Assembly: GCA_903853895.1 (NCBI GenBank)
Contig: CAINUX010000022.1
Coordinates: 74,896-114,514 of the forward strand
Source of the DNA: an uncultured beta proteobacterium
GTDB taxonomy: Bacteria > Pseudomonadota > Gammaproteobacteria > Burkholderiales > Burkholderiaceae_C
Reading direction: 5' to 3'
Length of the DNA: 39,619 bases
Under the pieces are notes generated by a model. The model was given only the letters and a program-made list of their open reading frames with translations. It did not search any database and had not been told where the DNA came from. Shown piece by piece: positions 11,092-22,371 of the stretch (positions within the stretch are counted from its first letter, which is position 1; each line of letters begins with the position of its first letter). Position numbers and translations under genes: made by a program.

Positions 11092-11190
11092 CTGACGGGC
11101 CTTCCCACATGGTGAAGCGGCCAACCGGGTCAGGTGGGGAACCAAGCAGCCCTAACTGTGGAGCCAGTGCTGGGGTCAAGGCTCGTCAAC
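11092..11190 (+). ncRNA. ffs: Signal recognition particle RNA (4.5S RNA)
   Basis: This is the small bacterial SRP RNA that binds Ffh and directs membrane proteins to the translocon. The conserved apical region GGGTCAGGTGGGGAACCAAGCAGCCC contains the GGAA tetraloop closed by GG/CC and the asymmetric-loop bases AAGCAGCC. The terminal stem pairs GACGGGCCTT (11094-11103) with AAGGCTCGTC (11178-11187), with a single G-U pair. The 5' arm is unique to this copy, whereas everything from 11117 onward is duplicated at 22292-22371. This is therefore the functional gene, and its 3' part was regenerated by integration of the island. Confidence 0.92.
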
Positions 11191-11196
11191 CTCATT
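11117..11196 (+). repeat. attL: 80-bp direct repeat (3' part of ffs)
   Basis: These 80 bases are identical, without mismatch or gap, to 22292-22371 in the same orientation. They span the apical loop and the whole 3' strand of the SRP RNA. The bases before (A here, G there) and after (T here, C there) differ, which sets the limits. The perfect identity and an integrase gene 115 bp downstream identify them as the attachment-site duplication of the island. The crossover position inside the repeat cannot be read from sequence. Confidence 0.93.
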
Positions 11197-11276: not shown

Positions 11277-11310
11277 TGGGATCACGTTGTTCAACCAACG
11301 TGGGGTCCAC

Positions 11311-12522
11311 ATGGCTGTTTTGACAGGTCTATTTCAACGCGGGTCAACCTATTACCTGCGCGTTGTGCTACCCAATAACCACCCGCTGAAGTCCAAGTAC
11401 AAGAACGGTGAATTCGTAACCTCGTTGGGTCGGTGCAGTCGCAGAGAGGCGGCAACTCTGGGCACTATCAAACGTGCTGAGGTCTTGAGAGGTCACACAG
11501 TTGCCACCAACAGTACGCCCGTACAGGTCTTAAAGTCGCCACCAACAGGTCCAGTCCTTCGGGACATTTACACCCGGTGGAAGGCAAGCAAGCCACGCTC
11601 TACCGACTCTCTCAACAATTGCCTTCGCTCGGTCACCCTTTGCGAGGAATTCACCGGAAACCCGCCTATCACTCAGTTGACCCGCGAACAAGGTGATGGA
11701 TTTCGCACATGGCTACAGCACCCAGACCGGAAGACCACCAGCAAGACCGCACGTGATCGCCTTACGTGGGTTAAGTCTGTTCTGAAGTTTGCAGCCCGTG
11801 ACCTTGGACTGATTGATCGGAACCCTTGGGAGGGACTCGACATTGCATTCAAGACCACCAACAAACGCAGACCATGGACTGACGGTGAACTAAAAACCTT
11901 TTTCACCCAACCCCTGCACACCGCCTACAAGTTGCCCACAGACAAAAAGGCCGGTGCCGATGCCGCTTACTGGATACCCGTGCTAGGACTTTACACCGGG
12001 GCACGAGTCGGAGAGCTGGCGCAGCTTCGGGTCGCTGACGTAGACGAAACCGGGGAATTTCCTGTCCTTTCGATAACTGATGAAGGTGAAGGCCAGTCGG
12101 TCAAGTCTCAGGCTGGGGTACGTAAAGTGCCACTACACGACGAACTGGTACGACTGGGCTTCCTTGACTATGTAGGAACCCTCAGAGAGCGGAAGGAAGA
12201 CCTTCTGTGGCCGCTACTGGTCACACGTGAAGGCAAACCCGGCGGATATTTCAGTCAGTGGTTCGGAACCTATCGCCGTTCCCTCGGGTTTGGTATGTAT
12301 CCTGATTTCCACTGCCTGCGCCACACTGTTCGCAGTCAGTTGGCAGAGGCCGAGATTGCAGAACAGGTAATGGACAATCTTGTAGGCCATGAAATCAAAG
12401 GGAGCACCGGGGCGAAGGTCTACACCCACCGAACTCTCAAGACACTGAAAAAGGCGATAGACGTATTGCAGCACCCTGCCCTATCTGTGTCACGTACTTG
12501 GCACCATCCGTCGTGGGGTTAG
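11311..12522 (+). CDS. int: Tyrosine site-specific integrase
   Basis: This 403-residue phage-type integrase is the likely enzyme for insertion into ffs. The start ATG at 11311 follows GGGG at about 7 bases; a TTG 24 bp earlier is in frame. The N-terminal 70 residues (LTGLFQRGSTYYLRVVLP) look like an arm-binding domain. A core-binding SAM-like domain follows (TDSLNNCLRSVTLCEEFTG). The catalytic set is complete: Arg232 (TGARVGELAQL), His334 and Arg337 (HCLRHT), His360 (VGHEIKGSTG) and Tyr371 (VYTHR). It lies next to attL and points into the element, the usual arrangement. The recombination partner or directionality factor may be the AlpA-like gene downstream. Confidence 0.95.
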   Translation: MAVLTGLFQRGSTYYLRVVLPNNHPLKSKYKNGEFVTSLGRCSRREAATLGTIKRAEVLRGHTVATNSTPVQVLKSPPTGPVLRDIYTRWKASKPRSTDSLNNCLRSVTLCEEFTGNPPITQLTREQGDGFRTWLQHPDRKTTSKTARDRLTWVKSVLKFAARDLGLIDRNPWEGLDIAFKTTNKRRPWTDGELKTFFTQPLHTAYKLPTDKKAGADAAYWIPVLGLYTGARVGELAQLRVADVDETGEFPVLSITDEGEGQSVKSQAGVRKVPLHDELVRLGFLDYVGTLRERKEDLLWPLLVTREGKPGGYFSQWFGTYRRSLGFGMYPDFHCLRHTVRSQLAEAEIAEQVMDNLVGHEIKGSTGAKVYTHRTLKTLKKAIDVLQHPALSVSRTWHHPSWG

Positions 12523-13236: not shown

Positions 13237-15213
13237 ATGAGCATCCATTTTATTAAGAACACGGCCTCCGAGCCAGAGAAAATTGTCGGCCTTCAACTGG
13301 CTGAGAATCAAGATCAAGATCAAGATCATCAAGTCTTCAAGTCCGTGGAGAGTTATCAAAAGCACGACTTGCGCGTCTTACCATTGAACCGTAACACCGG
13401 GTTTTGTTGGTTAAAAAAAGATCAACAGCAGGCTTTCAGTTGTTCACCTGAAAACATTTTCAAAGAGTTCAAGGGCATGGACGTTGGTCTGGATTTGCAA
13501 GGAAGCGGAATCGTTGGTATCGACGTTGATTGTGCAGAAGTAGTGCCATTTCTTCAGAAGTGGCTACCACCGACCTGTACTGTTGGGCGCGAAGGCAAAC
13601 CCACTTCATGGATGTTTTACCGATTGAACGGGACGGTTCCAAAGAACATGTCTTTCCATGATTTTGGTAAGGACGGAAAGACGAGTGGCGAATTGGGCGG
13701 GATCAAAGTTAACGCCATAGTGCCACTGCCACCGTCTCGCCACAGGAAAACACAAATGCCACTGCTGTGGACAACCGGTGACGAACCCACGGCAATTGAG
13801 TCCAAACTGTTCATGGCAGTTGCCAGCAAATGTTTTGCTCTGGCGTTGATTGCCCGGCATTGGCCGGGGCCGGGTAACAGACATGAACCTACGCTTGCCT
13901 TGGCCGGTACCTTTGCTAAAGCCGGTTGGTCCCTTGACGAGGCAAAGGAAGCGGTTCGATTACTGGTATCCGCTACCGGCGACCACAAGCTGGATGATCG
14001 CCTAATCGAGGTCAAGTCAACCTATGACCATTTTCAGAAGAATGAGTTCACAACGGGTCTGCCGAGTTTGGTGAAATTGCTTGAATCGGCCATAAGCGGA
14101 CCGACAAATTTGGAGCAGACACTCCGCGATTGGCTTGGTTTCAACGCCACAGAAAAATCAGATGAAACCATTGGAGCAGACGACGGTCACATTTTTCCAT
14201 TGTCCAAATACGCGCTGACGCTGGGTGAGTTGATGGCGAAAGAGTTGCCAGAACAGCAGTTCATTGTCCATCCATGGCTACCGACTCAGGCGTTGATCAT
14301 GGTTTACGCGGCCAGAGGTGTGGGCAAGACTTGGGTAGCCTTGGAGATGGCAATCAGTATCGCCATTGGGCGGGACTTCCTTGCGTGGCCCGTACCGAAG
14401 CCCCGGCGGGTACTTTTCATAGACGGTGAAATGCCCCTTGCGAGTCTTCAGTTCAGACTTAGGAGTCTTCTGGGTAGCACTCCGTTGCCCGATGGCTTAA
14501 CACTCATATCGAGTACGTTGCTATGGCAGGACAGCGCACCATTGAACATCAGCCAACCCAAACAGCAACTCCGGGTAGATGCTCTGCTAAACGAAATGAA
14601 ATCGAAAGGAAAGGAACCGGACCTAATCATCCTTGATAACCTTTCCTCGCTCGTCACCGGCATTGATGAGAACTCCAACTCTGATCTTGATCAGTTTCTT
14701 CAATGGCTGGTGAAACTGCGCAGTCAGGGCTACGCGGTCATGGCAGTTCATCACGCTGGCAAGAATGGTGACCAGCGCGGAGGATCAAGGCGGGAGGACT
14801 TGTTGGATACCGTTGTGAAACTTGAAAAACGCGAGGCTCTTAATTTGGCTGTCGCTGAAGGAGCGTGTTTTGACATTAAATTTACCAAGCTGCGCGGGGA
14901 GCATCCGAAGCCCATAAGCCTTGTAGCGGCCCTGACAACAAATGAAAAAGGGCACCTATTTTGGAAGCACGAGGAGGATCAGAAGTTACCGGCCTACATG
15001 AAGGTTATGCAGGGCATCCACGACTACAACCCAACAACGCAGACCGCGTTAGCAGACAAGTTGAAATGCACCCGGCAGCACGTGTCTGAACAAGTGAAAA
15101 TATGCGTTGAAAAGGGTCTGGTCAATAAGCAAGACCTATCGCTGACCCCGAAGGGAGTGGGTGTCATGGCTCCAGTCATTCAAGCGGCAAAGAAGTACGC
15201 AAATAACCTTTAG
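13237..15213 (+). CDS. Primase-polymerase / RepA-like ATPase replication protein
   Basis: This 658-residue replication protein of the element starts at an ATG after GGAAGGAAG. The N-terminal third is a bifunctional primase-polymerase domain: GIDVDC gives Asp96 and Asp98, and PPSRH at 165-169 is the Ser-x-His motif. The middle is a RecA-fold ATPase of the AAA_25/RepA helicase type, with Walker A ARGVGKT (359-365), VLFIDGEMP, Walker B LIILDN (Asp467) and HHAGKNGDQRGGSRREDLLDTV. The C-terminus holds a winged helix (TALADKLKCTRQHVSEQVK). Fusions of this kind start replication of satellites and islands. A hexamer repeat (ATCAAG) near codons 25-31 encodes QDQDQD. Confidence 0.88.
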   Translation: MSIHFIKNTASEPEKIVGLQLAENQDQDQDHQVFKSVESYQKHDLRVLPLNRNTGFCWLKKDQQQAFSCSPENIFKEFKGMDVGLDLQGSGIVGIDVDCAEVVPFLQKWLPPTCTVGREGKPTSWMFYRLNGTVPKNMSFHDFGKDGKTSGELGGIKVNAIVPLPPSRHRKTQMPLLWTTGDEPTAIESKLFMAVASKCFALALIARHWPGPGNRHEPTLALAGTFAKAGWSLDEAKEAVRLLVSATGDHKLDDRLIEVKSTYDHFQKNEFTTGLPSLVKLLESAISGPTNLEQTLRDWLGFNATEKSDETIGADDGHIFPLSKYALTLGELMAKELPEQQFIVHPWLPTQALIMVYAARGVGKTWVALEMAISIAIGRDFLAWPVPKPRRVLFIDGEMPLASLQFRLRSLLGSTPLPDGLTLISSTLLWQDSAPLNISQPKQQLRVDALLNEMKSKGKEPDLIILDNLSSLVTGIDENSNSDLDQFLQWLVKLRSQGYAVMAVHHAGKNGDQRGGSRREDLLDTVVKLEKREALNLAVAEGACFDIKFTKLRGEHPKPISLVAALTTNEKGHLFWKHEEDQKLPAYMKVMQGIHDYNPTTQTALADKLKCTRQHVSEQVKICVEKGLVNKQDLSLTPKGVGVMAPVIQAAKKYANNL

Positions 15214-15686: not shown

Positions 15687-15731
15687 TGCTATCCGGTAAA
15701 TTGAACCCGACAAATTTGAATTCTTTTGAAC

Positions 15732-16157
15732 ATGATCGCGACACCAAATGACTGCCTGACCTTGTCACCAAAGCAGCGGCACGCCGCCGCCTCAATTGCG
15801 TCCGGGCAGTCACAGCGACAAGTGGCAAAGATTTGCGGCGTTAGTCCTCAGACATTAACAGCATGGGTACACAGCCCAGCTTTTTGCGGACATGTCGAGT
15901 CACTGCTTGTCAAGGTGGAGAGGGAGACCCAGCAAGTCCTTCATGGACTGCGTGTACGTGCCGTGGAGACGCTGGCGCAGTTACTGGACAGCGGTAGTCC
16001 GTCAACACGCCTACAGGCCGCAAAACTCGTTTTAGAGGCCACGCATCGGCCATACGACACGTTTTCTGGAACCAGCCCGGCATTGAGTCAACAATCGGCA
16101 CACTTCAGGGAGATGATGGCCGTGATCGAAGGAAAAGCCAATGCTCTACCGCAGTAG
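15732..16157 (+). CDS. HTH protein resembling phage terminase small subunit
   Basis: This 141-residue protein has an N-terminal homeodomain-like helix-turn-helix: LTLSPKQRHAAASIASGQSQRQVAKICGVSPQTLTAWVH, followed by SPAFCGHVE. A helical segment (RVRAVETLAQLLDSG, RLQAAKLVLEATH) completes it. This two-part plan is seen in small terminase-like proteins (phBC6A51-type HTH) of phages and islands, which recognise packaging sites. In satellites such a protein can redirect helper-phage packaging. A general transcription regulator is the alternative. The ATG at 15732 is preferred to the TTG 6 bp earlier. The gene overlaps the next one by 17 bp. Confidence 0.65.
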   Translation: MIATPNDCLTLSPKQRHAAASIASGQSQRQVAKICGVSPQTLTAWVHSPAFCGHVESLLVKVERETQQVLHGLRVRAVETLAQLLDSGSPSTRLQAAKLVLEATHRPYDTFSGTSPALSQQSAHFREMMAVIEGKANALPQ

Positions 16158-16599: not shown

Positions 16600-17175
16600 T
16601 CAAACCGATGCCGTAGTGCCCACCCCGCCAAGATACGAATAAACAGTTTCCCGGCTTACACCGTACTCCCGGGCGAGAACAGCCTTCTTTTCCCCAGCCG
16701 CAGCACGCCGCCTAAGTTCATCAACACCTTCAGCAGTCAGTGATGGCTTACGGCCCTTGTACTTTCCCTCGGACTTTGCAATGGCGATGCCCTCACGCTG
16801 GCGCTCAAGGATGATTGACCGTTCAAATTCGGCAACCGCCCCAAGCATGGATAACAATAAGTTTGACATTGGCGAATCCTCGCCGGTGAACGTCAGACCT
16901 TCCTTATGGAACCGCACCACCACTCCGCGTCCCGTCAGGTCTTTGACAATGCGCCTTAGATCGTCCAGATTGCGGCATAGCCGGTCCATACTGTGGACAT
17001 GGAGGGCATCCCCCTCCCGCAGGTGAGACAGGCAAGCGGCAAGTTGTGGGCGGTCAGTATTCTTGCCAGAGGCACGGTCTTCAAAAACTTTATCTAAGGC
17101 AACACCGTCAAGCTGACGGGCGGTGTTCTGAACTACTGTACTGACGCGGGTATAACCAACATTCTGACCTGACAT
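16600..17175 (-). CDS. Serine recombinase (resolvase/invertase family)
   Basis: This 191-residue recombinase is of the Pin/Tn3-resolvase type. ATG 17175 is preceded by AAGGAG at 5 bases; an upstream in-frame start adds only five residues. The catalytic Ser12 is in VGYTRVST, and the conserved arginine regions are DRASGKNTDRPQL and HSMDRLCRNLDDL. The long E-helix is AVAEFERSIILERQREGIA, followed by a C-terminal HTH (KKAVLAREYGVSRETVYSYL). All catalytic elements appear intact. It is the only gene in the island on the minus strand and is divergent from the nuclease-helicase. It may resolve multimers, or be a remnant of a transposon-borne cargo insertion. Confidence 0.92.
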   Translation of the reverse strand: MSGQNVGYTRVSTVVQNTARQLDGVALDKVFEDRASGKNTDRPQLAACLSHLREGDALHVHSMDRLCRNLDDLRRIVKDLTGRGVVVRFHKEGLTFTGEDSPMSNLLLSMLGAVAEFERSIILERQREGIAIAKSEGKYKGRKPSLTAEGVDELRRRAAAGEKKAVLAREYGVSRETVYSYLGGVGTTASV

Positions 17176-17570
17176 AGCACTCCTTTGCACTGGGCAAATC
17201 GCCCAAACTGTCAGGTTGAATTCTAAGATGTTATTTACAGACTGTCAAAAAATCATTGAAGCCAGTCTAAATTTACACTTTTTCTGTCAGATTAATGTGT
17301 GGTGTTGGGGTGTAGTCCAGTTTGGCACACGCCGTAAGCAATCAATTTCACAGTGTCCATCCGAGGGCGAGTTCGGCAATCAAGGTCTGACCTTTCAAGA
17401 CAACTTCAATGATGGCTCGTCAAGCAATCACCGCTGCATAATCAGCGACCATAAAGCGCGTCGTCACTCATTTGAACGCGCAATCTCAGGGTGGCAGAGT
17501 TGGTCTGCCTTCAATTTTTCACCTCTCTGTTTTGTCCCTCCGGGAAATGGCGGATGTTTTTGAAAGAAGC
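17176..17570. promoter_or_regulatory. Divergent intergenic region between recombinase and nuclease-helicase
   Basis: This 395-bp region is AT-rich on its left side. It contains ACTGTCA at 17208-17214 and again at 17250-17256, and a further TGTCAG near 17290, TGTC-type motifs reminiscent of resolvase subsites. It should hold the promoters of both divergent genes. A 115-codon open frame across 17216-17563 has no family signature and poor composition, so I do not call it a gene. No firm -35/-10 pair is assigned. Confidence 0.35.
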
Positions 17571-20500
17571 ATGGCAACTTTCACGGATTTAGTTTCAAGC
17601 CTTGACATTGATCCCGTTAAGCGCGGAAAGCAGTTTGAGGTCTTCGTCAAGTGGTTTCTACAAACTGATCCTGAATGGGCCACGCAAGTGGAGCAGGTCT
17701 GGCTTTGGGAGGAATACCCTGACAGATGGGGCATTGACTGTGGCATTGACCTAGTATTTCGACACCGCAATGGTGAAACGTGGGCGGCCCAAGCCAAGTG
17801 CTATGCAGCCAGCCACGACATTACCAAACACGACGTTGACAAGTTCCTTAGTGAGTCCAATCGCAAGGGGATTGATCGGAGACTCCTGATCGCGACCACT
17901 GACCGCATTGGGGCAAATGCCAAGCAAGTCTGCGATGCACAAGAGAAGACCGTGGTTCGATACCTTCTCTCAAATTTTGAGAGTGCTGGCATTGATTACC
18001 CTGCGTCTATCGCTGCACTCAATGGTGCAAAGCCCAAGCCAAAGCCACTGCCCCGAGAGCACCAGATCGAAGCCATTGCAGCAGTTGAAGCGAACTTTCG
18101 GGACACTGATCGCGGTCAACTCATCATGGCCTGCGGCACTGGAAAGACGTTCACAACACTATGGATCAAGGAAACCCTCGCATCAAATTCAACATTGGTG
18201 CTACTCCCGTCATTGGGACTGCTGTCCCAAACACTCCACGAATGGACACTTGCTGCCAACCAGCCATTTGATGTTCTTTGTGTTTGTTCCGACGACACGG
18301 TAGCTAAAAGAGGCGGCGATGAAGCAATTCACTCAGTGTCCGATCTTGCATTTCCTGTAACGTCAGACATTGACGAAATCCGGGACTTCTTGAAACGCGA
18401 TGTTGCCAAGGTTGTCTTCTCCACATACCAATCTTCGCCACTTGTGGCCGAAGCGCAGACCAGCGAATTAGTTCAGCCATTCGATCTGGCCATTGCCGAC
18501 GAGGCACATCGTTGTGCAGGCAAGGTGGGAAGTGACTTTTCGACAATTCTCGATTCGGCCCTAATCCGAGCAAGTAAGCGGCTATTCACTACGGCCACAC
18601 CCCGCACCTACTCCACCACTGTTAAGAAAGCAGCAGGTGAGCGTGGCATTGAAGTTGTCGGAATGGACGATGTGGACGTGTTTGGAAGGGTACTTTTTGC
18701 CTTGCCATTTGGCGAAGCGATCAAACGAGGGCTGCTTACTGACTACCAAGTGGTCATCATCGGTGTGGACAACCCCACCATTGCACAATGGATCCAGAAC
18801 CGGGAGCTAATCAAGACTGAAACTGGTATCGAAAATGATGCAGAGTCCCTTGCTGCACAAATCGGACTTCTAAAAGCGTTCAAAGATTACGACCTTCAGC
18901 GAGTAATTAGCTTTCATAGTCGGGTCAATAGGGCCGAGTCATTCACACAAGACATTCAAAAGGTTACGCAGTGGGTTGGTGAGGTGCATCGGCCAACTGG
19001 GGTGTTGAAATCTGACTTCGTGTCTGGTGCTATGCCTACAGACAAACGCCGTAGGAAACTTGCGCAACTCAAAGCACTGACTGCAAATGAACGTGGGCTT
19101 CTCGCCAATGCACGTTGTCTTTCTGAAGGTGTGGATGTGCCATCTTTGGATGGTGTTGCATTCATTGATCCTCGTAGCAGCCAGACCGACATTATTCAAG
19201 CGGTGGGACGAGCCATTCGTCTCAGTCCAAACAAGAAGTTGGGAACCATTGTCCTGCCCGTATTCATTGAAGACGGTGAATCACCCGTTGAGTCAATTGA
19301 GGCAAGTAACTTCAAGCCAATCTGGGATGTGCTCAACGCCTTAAAGGCGCACGACGATGAATTGTCGTCAGAGTTGAATCAGTTCAGAACCGAAATGGGC
19401 ACTAGGTCGGGGTCACATGTTGGTGCTTTTTCAAAAATCCACATTGATTTGCCTTCATCAATTGACCAATCATTTGGCGAGTCGCTGCGGACTTTCTTGG
19501 TTCAGCAAGTAACTGAATCGTGGAATTTCTGGTTTGAACTACTGAAGGTATATGTCAGTAATGAAGGAAACTCCCTCGTACCTGCCCTCCTACAAACTGA
19601 TGATGGTTATCGACTCGGTGGCTGGGTGAGGAACCAAAGAGCAAGAAAGCGAAAATTGTCGCATGACCGCATTGCGCTACTTGAGAACTTGCCCGGCTGG
19701 AGTTGGGATGCGCACGCAGATAACTGGGAGGAGGGATATGCCCATCTCAAAGTCTTCACAAGTCGTGAGAGGCACGCAAAAGTAAATAAAAACTACATAA
19801 CCAAGGATGGATACCCGCTTGGTCAATGGGTGGGGGGTCAGCGAAACAAAACTGGAAGCCTTTCATCTGAGCGTAAAAGCCTACTTGAATCCTTACCCGG
19901 ATGGAGTTGGAATGTTTTTGAAGACGCTTGGGAAAAAGGATATAGCTATCTCAAGGAGTTTTCAGCCCAACAGGGCCACTCCAATGTTGCAGGCAATTTC
20001 AAAGCGCCCGATGGCTATCGAGTCGGACATTGGTTGCACGCTCAACGTGCGAAAAGGGATGCTTTGACACCGGAGCGACTGAAGCGACTTGAAGAACTAC
20101 CGGGGTGGAGTTGGAATGCTCTTGAGGACGCGTGGGAAGACGGATTTCGCCATCTCAAAGAATTTGTGGAGACGGAGGGTAATGCCAAAATTCCCGTGAA
20201 TTACATAAGCGGTGATGGCTACTGTGTGGGACGCTGGGTCAGCAAACAACGAGCAAGAAGAGAACTGATTCCGGTGGAGCGCAGGGCAAGATTGGAAAAA
20301 ATGCAAGGCTGGACTTGGGCTGAGCGTGTTTTGGGACCAAAGAAGCTATGGATTGAATGGCTGGTCTTGCTCAAAGAATTTGTCAGCACTATGGGACACG
20401 CTTCAGTTCCAAGTGGCTACAAAACAGTAGATGGATACAACCTTGGTCAGTGGGTCAGCAACCAACGAGCAAAAGCAATTAGCCTGTCGGCTGAGCAAGT

Positions 20501-21566
20501 TTCCCAGCTTGAAGCAATTGGCGGTTGGGTCTGGGAGGTGAAGGCAGAAAGATGGGACGACGCGTTTCATTTAGTCAAGGAATATATGGGTCGCAATAGC
20601 AATCGCCCTGTTCCTGCTAGATACAAGACTGCGGAAGGATTCAACCTTGGGACTTGGGTATCGGCTCAGCGGACAAACAAAGACAGGCTTTCATCGACAC
20701 GTCGCCAGCAGCTAGAGTCATTGCCCGGCTGGAGTTGGGATATTTTTCAGACTAGGTGGGAGGAAGGATTCCGAAACCTTGTGGATTTCGTAAGTCGTGA
20801 AGGCCATGCAAGGGTTACCGGGGACTACCAATGTGATGACGGATTTCGACTTGGTAGTTGGGTTAGGAACCAACGTACTGCAAGAGACAGCCTTTCACCA
20901 GAAAACAGCGCACGTCTTGAGTCATTGTCGGGATGGAGTTGGAACGTACTTACAGACGCGTGGGAAGACGGTTTTCGCCACCTAGAAGAATTTGTAAATC
21001 GCGAAGGTCATGCAAAGGTACCCAGCGAATTCAAATCGGCTGACGGATACCGGGTAGGTGGCTGGGCTGGAGTCCAACGAAGTACAAAGAACGAGTTGTC
21101 ATCCGAGCGCAGAATTCGACTGGAAGCCCTTCCGTTTTGGACTTGGGACACCGCGTCAGAACAGTGGGAGGAGGCTTTTTTCCAACTCAAGACTTTCGCA
21201 GAGCGTGAGGGCCACTGTTTGGTCCCCGCTTTGTATACGACTTCAGAGGGAAATCAAGTCGGTAGGTGGGTGAGTTACCAACGGGCAAGAAGGCAAAGCC
21301 TGTCAAGTGAACGAAAGGGTCGCCTAGAGGCACTCCCGGGATGGAGTTGGAAGGTATTGAACGATAAGTGGGAAGAAGGTTTTCGCCGCCTAGAAGAATT
21401 TGTAAATCGCGAAGGCCACGCAATGGTACCCAGCAATTTCAAATCGACTGACGGATACAGAATTGGTATGTGGGTAGCTACGCAACGAACAAAGAAGGAT
21501 CGACTCACTCTTGAGCGCAGGTCACGACTGGAAGCATTGCAGGGATGGGGCTGGAGTGGTCGATGA
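17571..21566 (+). CDS. Nuclease-SF2 helicase with ten helicase-associated (HA) repeats
   Basis: This is a 1331-residue multidomain enzyme, probably for DNA restriction or defence. The N-terminus is a PD-(D/E)xK nuclease of the Mrr type: Asp60 in GIDLVF and QAK at 74-76, after WLWEEYPDRWGIDCG. An SF2 helicase follows with Walker A MACGTGKT (about 186-193), DEAH at 310-313, a TATPRTYS motif III, and QAVGRAIR at 543-550. From residue 651 to the end there are ten HA repeats of 68 residues with the pattern W-E-x-G-F, then GHAxVP, DGYxLGxWVxxQR and LPGWSW. I prefer ATG 17571 (MATFTDLV, after GAAAGAAG), although ATG 17547 and TTG 17472 are in frame. A DUF2513-like gene follows after 32 bp. Confidence 0.9.
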   Translation: MATFTDLVSSLDIDPVKRGKQFEVFVKWFLQTDPEWATQVEQVWLWEEYPDRWGIDCGIDLVFRHRNGETWAAQAKCYAASHDITKHDVDKFLSESNRKGIDRRLLIATTDRIGANAKQVCDAQEKTVVRYLLSNFESAGIDYPASIAALNGAKPKPKPLPREHQIEAIAAVEANFRDTDRGQLIMACGTGKTFTTLWIKETLASNSTLVLLPSLGLLSQTLHEWTLAANQPFDVLCVCSDDTVAKRGGDEAIHSVSDLAFPVTSDIDEIRDFLKRDVAKVVFSTYQSSPLVAEAQTSELVQPFDLAIADEAHRCAGKVGSDFSTILDSALIRASKRLFTTATPRTYSTTVKKAAGERGIEVVGMDDVDVFGRVLFALPFGEAIKRGLLTDYQVVIIGVDNPTIAQWIQNRELIKTETGIENDAESLAAQIGLLKAFKDYDLQRVISFHSRVNRAESFTQDIQKVTQWVGEVHRPTGVLKSDFVSGAMPTDKRRRKLAQLKALTANERGLLANARCLSEGVDVPSLDGVAFIDPRSSQTDIIQAVGRAIRLSPNKKLGTIVLPVFIEDGESPVESIEASNFKPIWDVLNALKAHDDELSSELNQFRTEMGTRSGSHVGAFSKIHIDLPSSIDQSFGESLRTFLVQQVTESWNFWFELLKVYVSNEGNSLVPALLQTDDGYRLGGWVRNQRARKRKLSHDRIALLENLPGWSWDAHADNWEEGYAHLKVFTSRERHAKVNKNYITKDGYPLGQWVGGQRNKTGSLSSERKSLLESLPGWSWNVFEDAWEKGYSYLKEFSAQQGHSNVAGNFKAPDGYRVGHWLHAQRAKRDALTPERLKRLEELPGWSWNALEDAWEDGFRHLKEFVETEGNAKIPVNYISGDGYCVGRWVSKQRARRELIPVERRARLEKMQGWTWAERVLGPKKLWIEWLVLLKEFVSTMGHASVPSGYKTVDGYNLGQWVSNQRAKAISLSAEQVSQLEAIGGWVWEVKAERWDDAFHLVKEYMGRNSNRPVPARYKTAEGFNLGTWVSAQRTNKDRLSSTRRQQLESLPGWSWDIFQTRWEEGFRNLVDFVSREGHARVTGDYQCDDGFRLGSWVRNQRTARDSLSPENSARLESLSGWSWNVLTDAWEDGFRHLEEFVNREGHAKVPSEFKSADGYRVGGWAGVQRSTKNELSSERRIRLEALPFWTWDTASEQWEEAFFQLKTFAEREGHCLVPALYTTSEGNQVGRWVSYQRARRQSLSSERKGRLEALPGWSWKVLNDKWEEGFRRLEEFVNREGHAMVPSNFKSTDGYRIGMWVATQRTKKDRLTLERRSRLEALQGWGWSGR
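19521..21563 (+). repeat. Ten tandem 204-bp repeats coding the HA domains
   Basis: Repeat units begin at the conserved Trp codon at 19521, 19725, 19929, 20133, 20349, 20553, 20757, 20961, 21165 and 21369. Spacing is 204 bp everywhere except the fourth unit (216 bp). The last unit is cut at 65 codons by the stop. Most units have diverged, but unit 8 (20961-21050) and unit 10 (21369-21458) differ at only eight of 90 bases. This points to recent duplication or gene conversion within the array. Confidence 0.9.
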
Positions 21567-21598
21567 TGCACTTATAACTGTAGCGATTGGAGTAGTTG

Positions 21599-21964
21599 AT
21601 GAGAAGAAATCTTGATCTTGTTCGCGAAATCTTGATCTGGATGGAGGCGCGACCAGAGGGGCGGAATGTAAATTGGAAAATTGAAATTGAAGGATTCACT
21701 GACGATGAAATCGGGTACCACGCCTACCTGATGAATCAAGCAGGACTAATTATTGCTGCGGACGCAACGCCGCTAGAGTCCGCCTCACCGAAGTGGATTC
21801 CGAACATGCTTACGTGGCAGGGTCACGAATTTCTAGCTGCTGTCAAGGACGACACACTTTGGGCAAAAGCCAAGAAGGATGTTATTCGGCCTGCCGTAGG
21901 TGCAACGTTTTCAGTGCTTCTTGAATGGTTGAAATCAGAGGCCAAGTTGCGGTTAGGTCTGTAG
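21599..21964 (+). CDS. DUF2513-like protein
   Basis: This 121-residue protein has the DUF2513 pattern: RRNLDLVREILIWMEARP at the start, then IGYHAYLMNQAGLIIAAD, and the signature LTWQGHEFLAAVKDDTLW. The start at ATG 21599 follows GGAG (21589-21592); a TTG directly before it is also in frame. The family's molecular function is not established to my knowledge; the fold is predicted to be winged-helix-like. It lies 32 bp after the nuclease-helicase on the same strand, so co-expression and a shared role (regulator or partner) are plausible. It is the last gene of the element. Confidence 0.8.
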   Translation: MRRNLDLVREILIWMEARPEGRNVNWKIEIEGFTDDEIGYHAYLMNQAGLIIAADATPLESASPKWIPNMLTWQGHEFLAAVKDDTLWAKAKKDVIRPAVGATFSVLLEWLKSEAKLRLGL

Positions 21965-22291
21965 TAGGCAGTCACGAGGCTCGACTGACGGAAATCGAAC
22001 CCGCGCCCCTTTTGTTTGCAGGCTTAGACGGAGTAAGTATGCACAACAACTGTTGAAATACTGACCCCAAAGCCCAAAGCCCAAAGCCCAATGCTCATCA
22101 GCATCAGGTTCAAATTTGTAACAGGTAGCTGTAACAGGTAGCGTCAAACAATACCTACAGCGGTCAGCGGTTGACCAGTCCAACTTTTCATTGATTCTTG
22201 ACAAACTGCTGTTACGATAACGTCGTGATTCCGAGAGTTTTAGCTGGAGAAACCATGTAAATGGTGACGGTACGACTTCACTCATGGACTG
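21965..22291. other. Non-coding right end of the element
   Basis: No gene is supported here. The stretch contains a 7-bp tandem repeat CCCAAAG (about 3.7 copies, 22065-22090), the paired arm-type repeats at 22117-22139, and a T-arm-like segment on the minus strand near 21988-22010 (GGGTTCGATTTCC), which may be a relic of an RNA gene. A palindrome CAACAACTGTTG lies near 22045. These are consistent with element-end DNA used by the integrase. Confidence 0.5.
22117..22139 (+). repeat. Putative integrase arm sites, right end
   Basis: TGTAACAGGT occurs at 22117-22126 and 22130-22139 with a 13-bp period, mirroring the TGTAACACCT pair at the left end (11254-11276). It lies 153 bp inside attR. Both pairs are in the same orientation on the plus strand. 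Confidence 0.6.
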
Positions 22292-22371
22292 GCGGCCAAC
22301 CGGGTCAGGTGGGGAACCAAGCAGCCCTAACTGTGGAGCCAGTGCTGGGGTCAAGGCTCGTCAACCTCATT
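22292..22371 (+). repeat. attR: 80-bp direct repeat (displaced 3' part of ffs)
   Basis: This is a perfect copy of 11117-11196. The 5' strand of the SRP RNA and its promoter are absent upstream, so this copy cannot make SRP RNA. It is probably the original chromosomal 3' end of ffs, pushed away by the insertion. The original neighbour sequence continues into the possible ffs terminator and nirN. Confidence 0.93.

Follow-up and report, generated by a model that had tools for sequence, protein, structure and literature searches.

A Type ISP-like nuclease-helicase core joined to HA repeats, a family whose young arrays diversify at four positions

The closest described relatives of the protein analyzed here are the Type ISP restriction enzymes LlaGI and LlaBIII. 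According to PMC4666363, ISP enzymes translocate and cut on collision, and LlaGI and LlaBIII are almost wholly identical outside their target-recognition domains (TRDs); in PMC4872093, Asp78 is the catalytic aspartate of LlaGI, which was mutated to alanine. We analyzed a stretch of 39,619 nucleotides (hereafter, the window) from an uncultured beta proteobacterium, in which a mobile element carries the gene of a protein that combines an Mrr-type PD-(D/E)xK nuclease, a superfamily 2 (SF2) helicase motor and an array of HA repeats. This protein is not a member of Type ISP, because a methyltransferase and a TRD were looked for and are absent, but it probably works like one with another recognition module. 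Taken as a whole, the sequence comparisons give slightly better than an even chance that the window protein is an ATP-dependent, Type ISP-related restriction enzyme without a methyltransferase, which would be aimed by its HA array; defence against phages or plasmids would be the likely outcome. The new part of the finding is the diversifying HA array: in young HA arrays of relatives, four positions per repeat change at more than the neutral rate, whereas the scaffold around them is conserved.

The window gene encodes a real enzyme with intact motifs. Its reading frame is already open from a TTG at 17472, but the ATG start given in Table 1 agrees with the aligned starts of three relatives (loci L005, L046 and L047). 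The nuclease, SF2 helicase and ten HA repeats named in a preliminary description, made from the sequence of the window alone, all have Pfam matches, and every motif listed there is present; Walker A, DEAH (residues 310-313) and QAVGRAIR (543-550) are all intact in the motor. The same description noted the absence of a methyltransferase, and indeed none was found among the seven element proteins tested.

The similarity to Type ISP enzymes covers the entire nuclease-motor core. In a phmmer search against the PDB, residues 3-603 aligned with residues 14-653 of LlaBIII (4xqk; E 1e-88), and LlaGI (5ffj) was also matched. Counted along this alignment, Asp60 of the window protein falls on LlaBIII position 78. 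The match stops at residue 653 of the 1578 residues of LlaBIII, and the remainder of the window protein consists of HA repeats. An AlphaFold2 (AF2) model of residues 1-712 (pLDDT 86.6, pTM 0.81) had 4xqk as its first Foldseek match (E 9.6e-45, TMq 0.75), and the best PADLOC match of the protein was REase_MTase_IIG over residues 16-605. Over residues 3-603, the window protein shares with Type ISP enzymes the Mrr nuclease, the catalytic aspartate and the SF2 ATPase, arranged in the same order and with the same fold. Unlike those enzymes, the window protein carries the HA array from residue 645 instead of a methyltransferase-TRD half: the chain contains neither a gamma-class N6-adenine methyltransferase domain nor its NPPY motif, and a C-terminal TRD was not found, the LlaBIII similarity ending before that half.

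Homologues of the core fall mainly into two architectures, namely ISP proteins with a methyltransferase half (16 in our tree, most of them some 1600 aa long, NPPY lying close to residue 1000) and proteins that lack NPPY and carry 3 to 12 HA repeats. Another seven nuclease-helicases in the tree show neither NPPY nor HA; in L017 and L028-L031 the stored stretch is cut, whereas L025 (699 aa) and L027 (976 aa) are complete frames with neither part. In the tree, which comprises 42 cores, is rooted at the midpoint and has several long branches, the ISP group and six of these seven (all but L027) are united in a single clade (100/100). Adjacent to it is a clade (87/93) consisting of the window protein, L005 (Thiobacillus), L006 (Desulfobulbaceae, a fragment) and proteins from the Rhodococcus plasmids L046, L047 and L076; Mrr_cat_2 is above the Pfam cut-off in all of them except L076, where it was detected by a custom profile only. 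HA helicases without a nuclease match (L055, L077 and L084) join the tree at the same open fork. L003, L008 and L056, which have a nuclease-like N-terminal domain and HA repeats, fall elsewhere; this domain is under the Pfam cut-off in L008 and L056 and gives no match in L003, and the Asp and QxK residues are kept in L003 and L008. Because these three proteins lie apart, a single origin of the nuclease-HA fusions is unsupported.

The C-terminal array of the window protein consists of nine repeats of 68 aa and one of 72. Pfam HA matches ten stretches (E 1.4e-150; 490 bits against a cut-off of 28.4), and the protein qualifies as an HA-domain (PF03457) helicase, that is, an SF2 helicase with C-terminal HA repeats above the Pfam cut-off. 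All ten repeats have the same residue at ten columns (W, G, G, W, Q, R, L, E, W, W); together with the Pfam E-value, this conservation rules out a chance or low-complexity origin of the repeats.

Some relatives have repeats that share almost the same scaffold and vary at a few columns. The L006 array alone served to rank the positions by non-synonymous difference, the other arrays being held out, and the top four, columns 25, 37, 41 and 44, were tested on 42 distinct arrays (12 copies were dropped). Arrays with a synonymous difference (pS) under 0.45, a limit of our own, were considered young; five held-out arrays are young, and four of these are independent, because L047 and L076 are alleles. 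In the five young arrays, the mean non-synonymous difference (pN) was 0.56 at the four positions versus 0.15 elsewhere (100,000 permutations, p 1e-5). The ratio of pN at the four positions to pS of the rest was 2.89, 2.61, 1.99, 1.85 and 1.43, whereas pN/pS in the rest of the repeat was 0.45-0.64. Moreover, each of the 41 held-out arrays, many of which are interrelated, gave the four positions an above-average mean rank (11.3 of 60 overall). Neutral codon simulations (random trees, 400 runs each, two transition ratios, scaled to the synonymous difference by approximation) never attained the observed value for L084, L005 and L047; for L055, they attained it in 0 and 0.25% of the runs. Among these independent young arrays, the nuclease domain is present in L005 and L047 and absent in L055 and L084.

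A second measure used the top eight L006 positions in 37 distinct arrays (3 copies dropped): the non-synonymous difference at those positions was divided by the array-wide synonymous difference, and intervals were derived from random repeat subsets. The ratio was 2.20 (1.79-2.82) for L084 and 1.29 (1.12-1.45) for a second L084 protein, 1.65 (1.34-1.97) for L055, 1.29 (1.10-1.52) for L005 and 1.25 (1.07-1.39) for L079. The eight positions varied more than random eight-sets in 34 of the 36 held-out arrays (p under 0.05; exceptions L016 and L033). They did so in the window array as well (p 0.0005); this array is saturated, so that it reveals which positions vary but does not demonstrate selection.

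SauUSI and other ATP-dependent Type IV enzymes are nuclease-helicases without a methyltransferase of their own, and SauUSI acts on modified DNA. The window protein could likewise be directed by structure or modification, its array binding DNA without sequence preference and the enzyme targeting replication intermediates, free ends or modified phage DNA. The lack of a methyltransferase among the seven element proteins tested is what such an enzyme would show, and the motor weakly resembles the model of a Dnd-linked restriction enzyme (E 7e-18, far under the cut-off) and SauUSI. However, non-specific binding would not predict faster-than-neutral change at four positions, and we consider this alternative unlikely. 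The Foldseek match of the window core to SauUSI (E 1.6e-13, TMq 0.31) is much weaker than that to LlaBIII, and we know of no HA array in SauUSI-type enzymes.

In an AF2 model of the HA repeats (pLDDT 81.7, pTM 0.34), each repeat forms three helices; with a pTM of 0.34, the fold of the single repeat is believable and the layout of the repeats is not. Columns 35-44 constitute helix 2 of the modelled repeat, and column 25 lies in the preceding loop. On a helical wheel, columns 37, 40, 41 and 44 are at 0, 300, 40 and 340 degrees, a 100-degree arc of helix 2, and W38, V39, Q42 and R43 are at 100, 200, 140 and 240 degrees; three of the four variable columns (37, 41 and 44) thus share one face of the predicted helix. 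Counted over 335 distinct repeats, the four columns contain 27% K/R, 34% N/Q/H/S/T/Y and 11% D/E, compared to 16%, 24% and 22%, respectively, at ten other variable columns of our choice. Such a composition fits contact with nucleic acid, without being proof of it. We infer that the HA arrays, including that of the window, bind DNA, and that the motor and nuclease act in an ISP-like manner.

Diversifying selection on the face of an alpha-helical repeat is also typical of protein recognition. The array might therefore bind proteins, either of phages or of partners, in which case the enzyme would be a sensor that tracks changing protein surfaces. The charge of the array, which is near neutral, and the non-basic character of column 25 would suit such a sensor. 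By contrast, the four columns taken jointly are richer in K/R and N/Q/H/S/T/Y and poorer in D/E than the comparison columns, and the array sits on a DNA motor, at the place where ISP enzymes hold their DNA-recognition part. Protein binding appears quite unlikely on balance.

Similar cores carry different arrays. L005 and L006 come from metagenome-assembled genomes (MAGs) that belong to different phyla, yet identity reaches 85% between their nucleases (199 aa compared) and 82% between their motors (368 aa compared), the latter value being lowered by masked N stretches; the L005 array has 6 repeats and the L006 array has 11. Over all pairs of repeats between the two arrays, identity was 70% in the scaffold, 15% at seven hypervariable columns, a set picked by eye after several arrays had been seen, and 12% at the four positions. 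In the allele pair L077/L085, 30 of 70 residues differ at the seven columns versus 118 of 505 elsewhere, and in the pair L047/L076, 4 of 35 differ versus 10 of 259. Two features of these loci deserve separate mention. The nuclease-HA gene of L006 (7899-12527, Desulfobulbaceae MAG) is split over three reading frames with masked stretches, which may reflect either an assembly error or a pseudogene. In the Rhodococcus plasmid gene L047 (8001-10976), of which L076 (5001-7967) holds an allele, the Walker A lysine, DEAH, motif VI and QxK are all altered, and the array is open and diversified; L047 is perhaps a binding-only form.

We propose that the HA array replaces the methyltransferase-TRD part as the recognition module. 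A row of repeats, each with a few hypervariable residues, would most likely read a long, specific nucleic-acid target. Binding of this target on invading DNA would start translocation along double-stranded DNA by the SF2 motor, and the nuclease would then cut, perhaps on collision as in LlaGI and LlaBIII. Self-protection would stem from the length of a target that is absent from the host rather than from methylation; with such a target, protective methylation would not be needed. The preliminary description had asked how an enzyme without a methyltransferase spares its own cell; the question was well placed, and the diversifying array is a candidate answer that it lacked. More broadly, it is possible, although we think it somewhat improbable, that HA repeats are unrecognized modular, re-programmable readers of nucleic acid, which, joined to a motor-nuclease on mobile elements, would amount to protein-coded 'guided' restriction: targets would shift by duplication, loss and mutation of repeats, the cutter would stay constant, and self-attack would be avoided by target length.

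Several observations weigh against an HA array that aims the enzyme at nucleic acid. Protein targets, too, would drive diversification. The K/R excess comes mostly from column 44 (46% K/R), whereas column 25 has 22% K/R and 21% D/E, and the net charge is small (+13 in the 691 aa of the window array and -2 in the L084 array). A Foldseek search with the model of the whole array returned nothing at E 0.001. The window array is old (pS 0.75), with a pN/pS at the hypervariable positions of 0.79-0.83, like other older arrays. In the eight-position measure, the intervals of L047 (1.32; 0.85-1.79) and L076 (1.15; 0.76-1.72) include 1, and the ratios of L015 (0.94; 0.82-1.16) and L078 (0.93; 0.78-1.11) do not exceed 1. 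The close allele pair L077/L086 has no excess at the seven columns (1 of 70 differ versus 6 of 513 elsewhere). Any pair of repeats within L006 is 78% alike, and 15-16% alike at the four positions; as the L006 repeats differ equally among themselves, they cannot be paired one to one with those of L005, and the low identity between the two arrays is by itself no proof of exchange. Finally, HA arrays are also present in helicases without a nuclease, in HA-only proteins and near plasmid ends; occurring outside nuclease fusions, they are not tied to defence.

The gene was first described as cargo of a mobile element, and this assignment is supported by the integrase, the 96-nt direct repeats (94% identical) at its ends and an empty site in a genome of the same genus (G1120). 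In G1120, the left and right flanks overlap by exactly 96 bases, present in one copy; the nearest 5 kb of the left flank and 4 kb of the right flank are 95.0% and 98.6% identical to the window, respectively. Because the flanks meet in this way, sharing one 96-base copy, 11,175 bp have been inserted into the 3' part of the signal recognition particle (SRP) RNA gene. The cargo comprises the nuclease-helicase-HA gene and a DUF2513 gene (Table 1), and the presence of an integrase, a primase and a gene resembling a small terminase subunit suggests a phage-satellite-type island. Searches with the primase yielded no good sister element in 149 genomes, where one weak relative with an internal stop was found, and none in viral contigs.

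Table 1. Features of the element and of the nuclease-helicase-HA gene (positions in the window)
Feature	Position	Strand	Basis or remark
SRP RNA gene, integration site	11094..11190	+	RF00169, 57.9 bits; attL copy of the 96-nt repeat, 11101-11196, covers most of the gene
Tyrosine integrase of the element	11287..12522	+	Pfam, phrog
Primase/AAA_25 replication protein of the element	13237..15213	+	Pfam, phrog
Helix-turn-helix protein, weakly terminase-small-subunit-like	15726..16157	+	phrog_2538, E 3.7e-10
Element protein of 135 aa	16141..16548	+	no family match in Pfam, PADLOC and phrog scans
Serine recombinase, invertase/resolvase type	16600..17190	-	Pfam, phrog
Nuclease-helicase-HA protein, 1331 aa	17571..21566	+	Pfam and reading frame; ATG start, stop included
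Mrr-type PD-(D/E)xK nuclease, aa 1-150	17571..18020	+	Pfam Mrr_cat_2 at aa 31-145, E 4e-34
Catalytic-site codon, Asp60	17748-17750	+	
Catalytic-site codons, QAK (aa 74-76)	17790-17798	+	
SF2 ATPase/motor, aa 155-611	18033..19403	+	Pfam ResIII, DEAD, Helicase_C
Ten HA repeats, aa 645-1328, candidate target-recognition module	19503..21554	+	Pfam HA (PF03457)
DUF2513 gene	21596..21964	+	Pfam PF10711, E 7e-27; phrog_585
attR, second copy of the 96-nt repeat	22276..22371	+	94% identity to attL

Chosen neighbours of six of the nine relatives with a nuclease-like domain were run against PADLOC (L047, L076 and L056 were left out), and matches were obtained near three of the six. Two were strong: L006 has an HNH protein upstream (410 bits) and Tin downstream (143 bits), and L048, the locus of L008, has PDC-S21 directly downstream (314 bits). 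At L049, the locus of L003, HIT-HNH and HNH proteins lie upstream; the PADLOC match is weak, and Pfam HNH is above the cut-off. The chosen neighbours of L046, L005 and L050 (G492) gave no PADLOC match, although L046 has an annotated NACHT neighbour. The defence-type role initially put forward thus stands in part: the ISP-like core, the mobile cargo and the PADLOC neighbours at three of the six relatives tested speak for it, but the pairing with DUF2513 does not.

That pairing was checked by running the Pfam model on HA relatives' genomes or records, ten in all, of which eight represent relatives that have a nuclease-like domain and two represent relatives that lack it; the only match was in the window's own; a search of 60 genomes of the family likewise found DUF2513 in the window's own genome only. 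Since the other nine of the ten contain no PF10711, DUF2513 is ruled out as a conserved partner in a two-gene system. The small gene itself had been correctly recognized as DUF2513-like: it lies 29 bases behind the nuclease-helicase stop if it starts at TTG 21596, and at the originally reported distance of 32 bases if it starts at ATG 21599. Elsewhere, 113 records match DUF2513 (71 plasmids and 42 phages), and six of these neighbourhoods were read. Three adjoin a restriction-type methyltransferase (L092, L095 and L093) and three an integrase (L093, which has both, L094 and L096); L097, the last of the six, comes from a Burkholderia phage. In the cyanobacterial plasmids L092 (81-4369) and L095 (695-4381), a restriction-type methyltransferase gene is followed directly downstream by DUF2513. 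DUF2513 may be a loose companion of restriction loci, as a methyltransferase adjoins it in three of the six neighbourhoods, or a gene of the element.

In 26 of the 60 plasmids among the matches listed, mostly from Streptomyces, an HA array is matched at most 4 kb from a record end. These terminal matches recall TtrA, a telomere-near helicase that, according to PMC8743542, is required for conjugation of SLP2; we infer that TtrA carries HA repeats. The window gene, which itself rides a mobile element, might serve the maintenance or transfer of that element, as a helicase for conjugation, telomeres or replication, rather than defence. However, the window protein keeps the Mrr nuclease with its active-site motifs intact, its core groups with ISP cores, and half of the six relatives tested adjoin PADLOC-type genes. 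A maintenance or transfer role is, in our assessment, very unlikely.

The occurrence of HA repeats outside the window is varied. Some families of the phylum include many genomes that encode long proteins whose old, divergent arrays contain 9 to 12 HA repeats (L032-L045); of the 150 genomes of the phylum that were sampled, 38 have HA matches. A Tsukamurella plasmid (L084, 332-6973) has a run of five genes, four of them with HA repeats; the six repeats of its helicase are near-identical, differing chiefly at columns 25, 37, 41 and 44. In a pst/phoU cluster of Rhodococcus opacus B4, the response regulator gene is overlapped by another gene (L079, 3896-5053) whose annotation gives the HA domain but no helicase.

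If the preferred reading of an ISP-related enzyme aimed by its HA array is true, restriction specificity would reside in an array of repeats and not in a TRD combined with a methyl mark. This would explain an ISP-like enzyme without a methyltransferase and would assign a function to PF03457; should a repeat code exist, the array would provide a new programmable DNA-binding scaffold. The literature searched, which did not include most subscription papers, yielded no functional study of HA repeats in bacteria; a term search of PMC5472282 was without a match, and the terms 'HA domain' and 'PF03457' are missing from the main text, as far as accessible, of a 2024 survey of DNA-binding tandem-repeat proteins (PMC11417379). 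The wording 'helicase associated' in PMC9122126 has a different meaning and does not refer to HA repeats.

Among solved structures, neither the window array nor the L006 array alone gave a phmmer match in the PDB, and the HA-array profile matched one chain at E <=1, namely 2kta, a 'Putative helicase' (E 6.4e-10), which is a single repeat of 74 residues. HA-domain helicases, such as those of actinobacterial plasmids, share with the window protein the motor, the HA array and the same variable repeat positions; unlike it, members such as L015, L077 and L084 are not matched by the nuclease profile. TALE, zinc-finger and other DNA-binding tandem repeats resemble the window array in that conserved repeats each carry a few hypervariable residues. 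In contrast to TALE and zinc-finger repeats, the window repeat is a three-helix unit of 68 aa within a motor-nuclease fusion, with putative DNA binding and a putative code.

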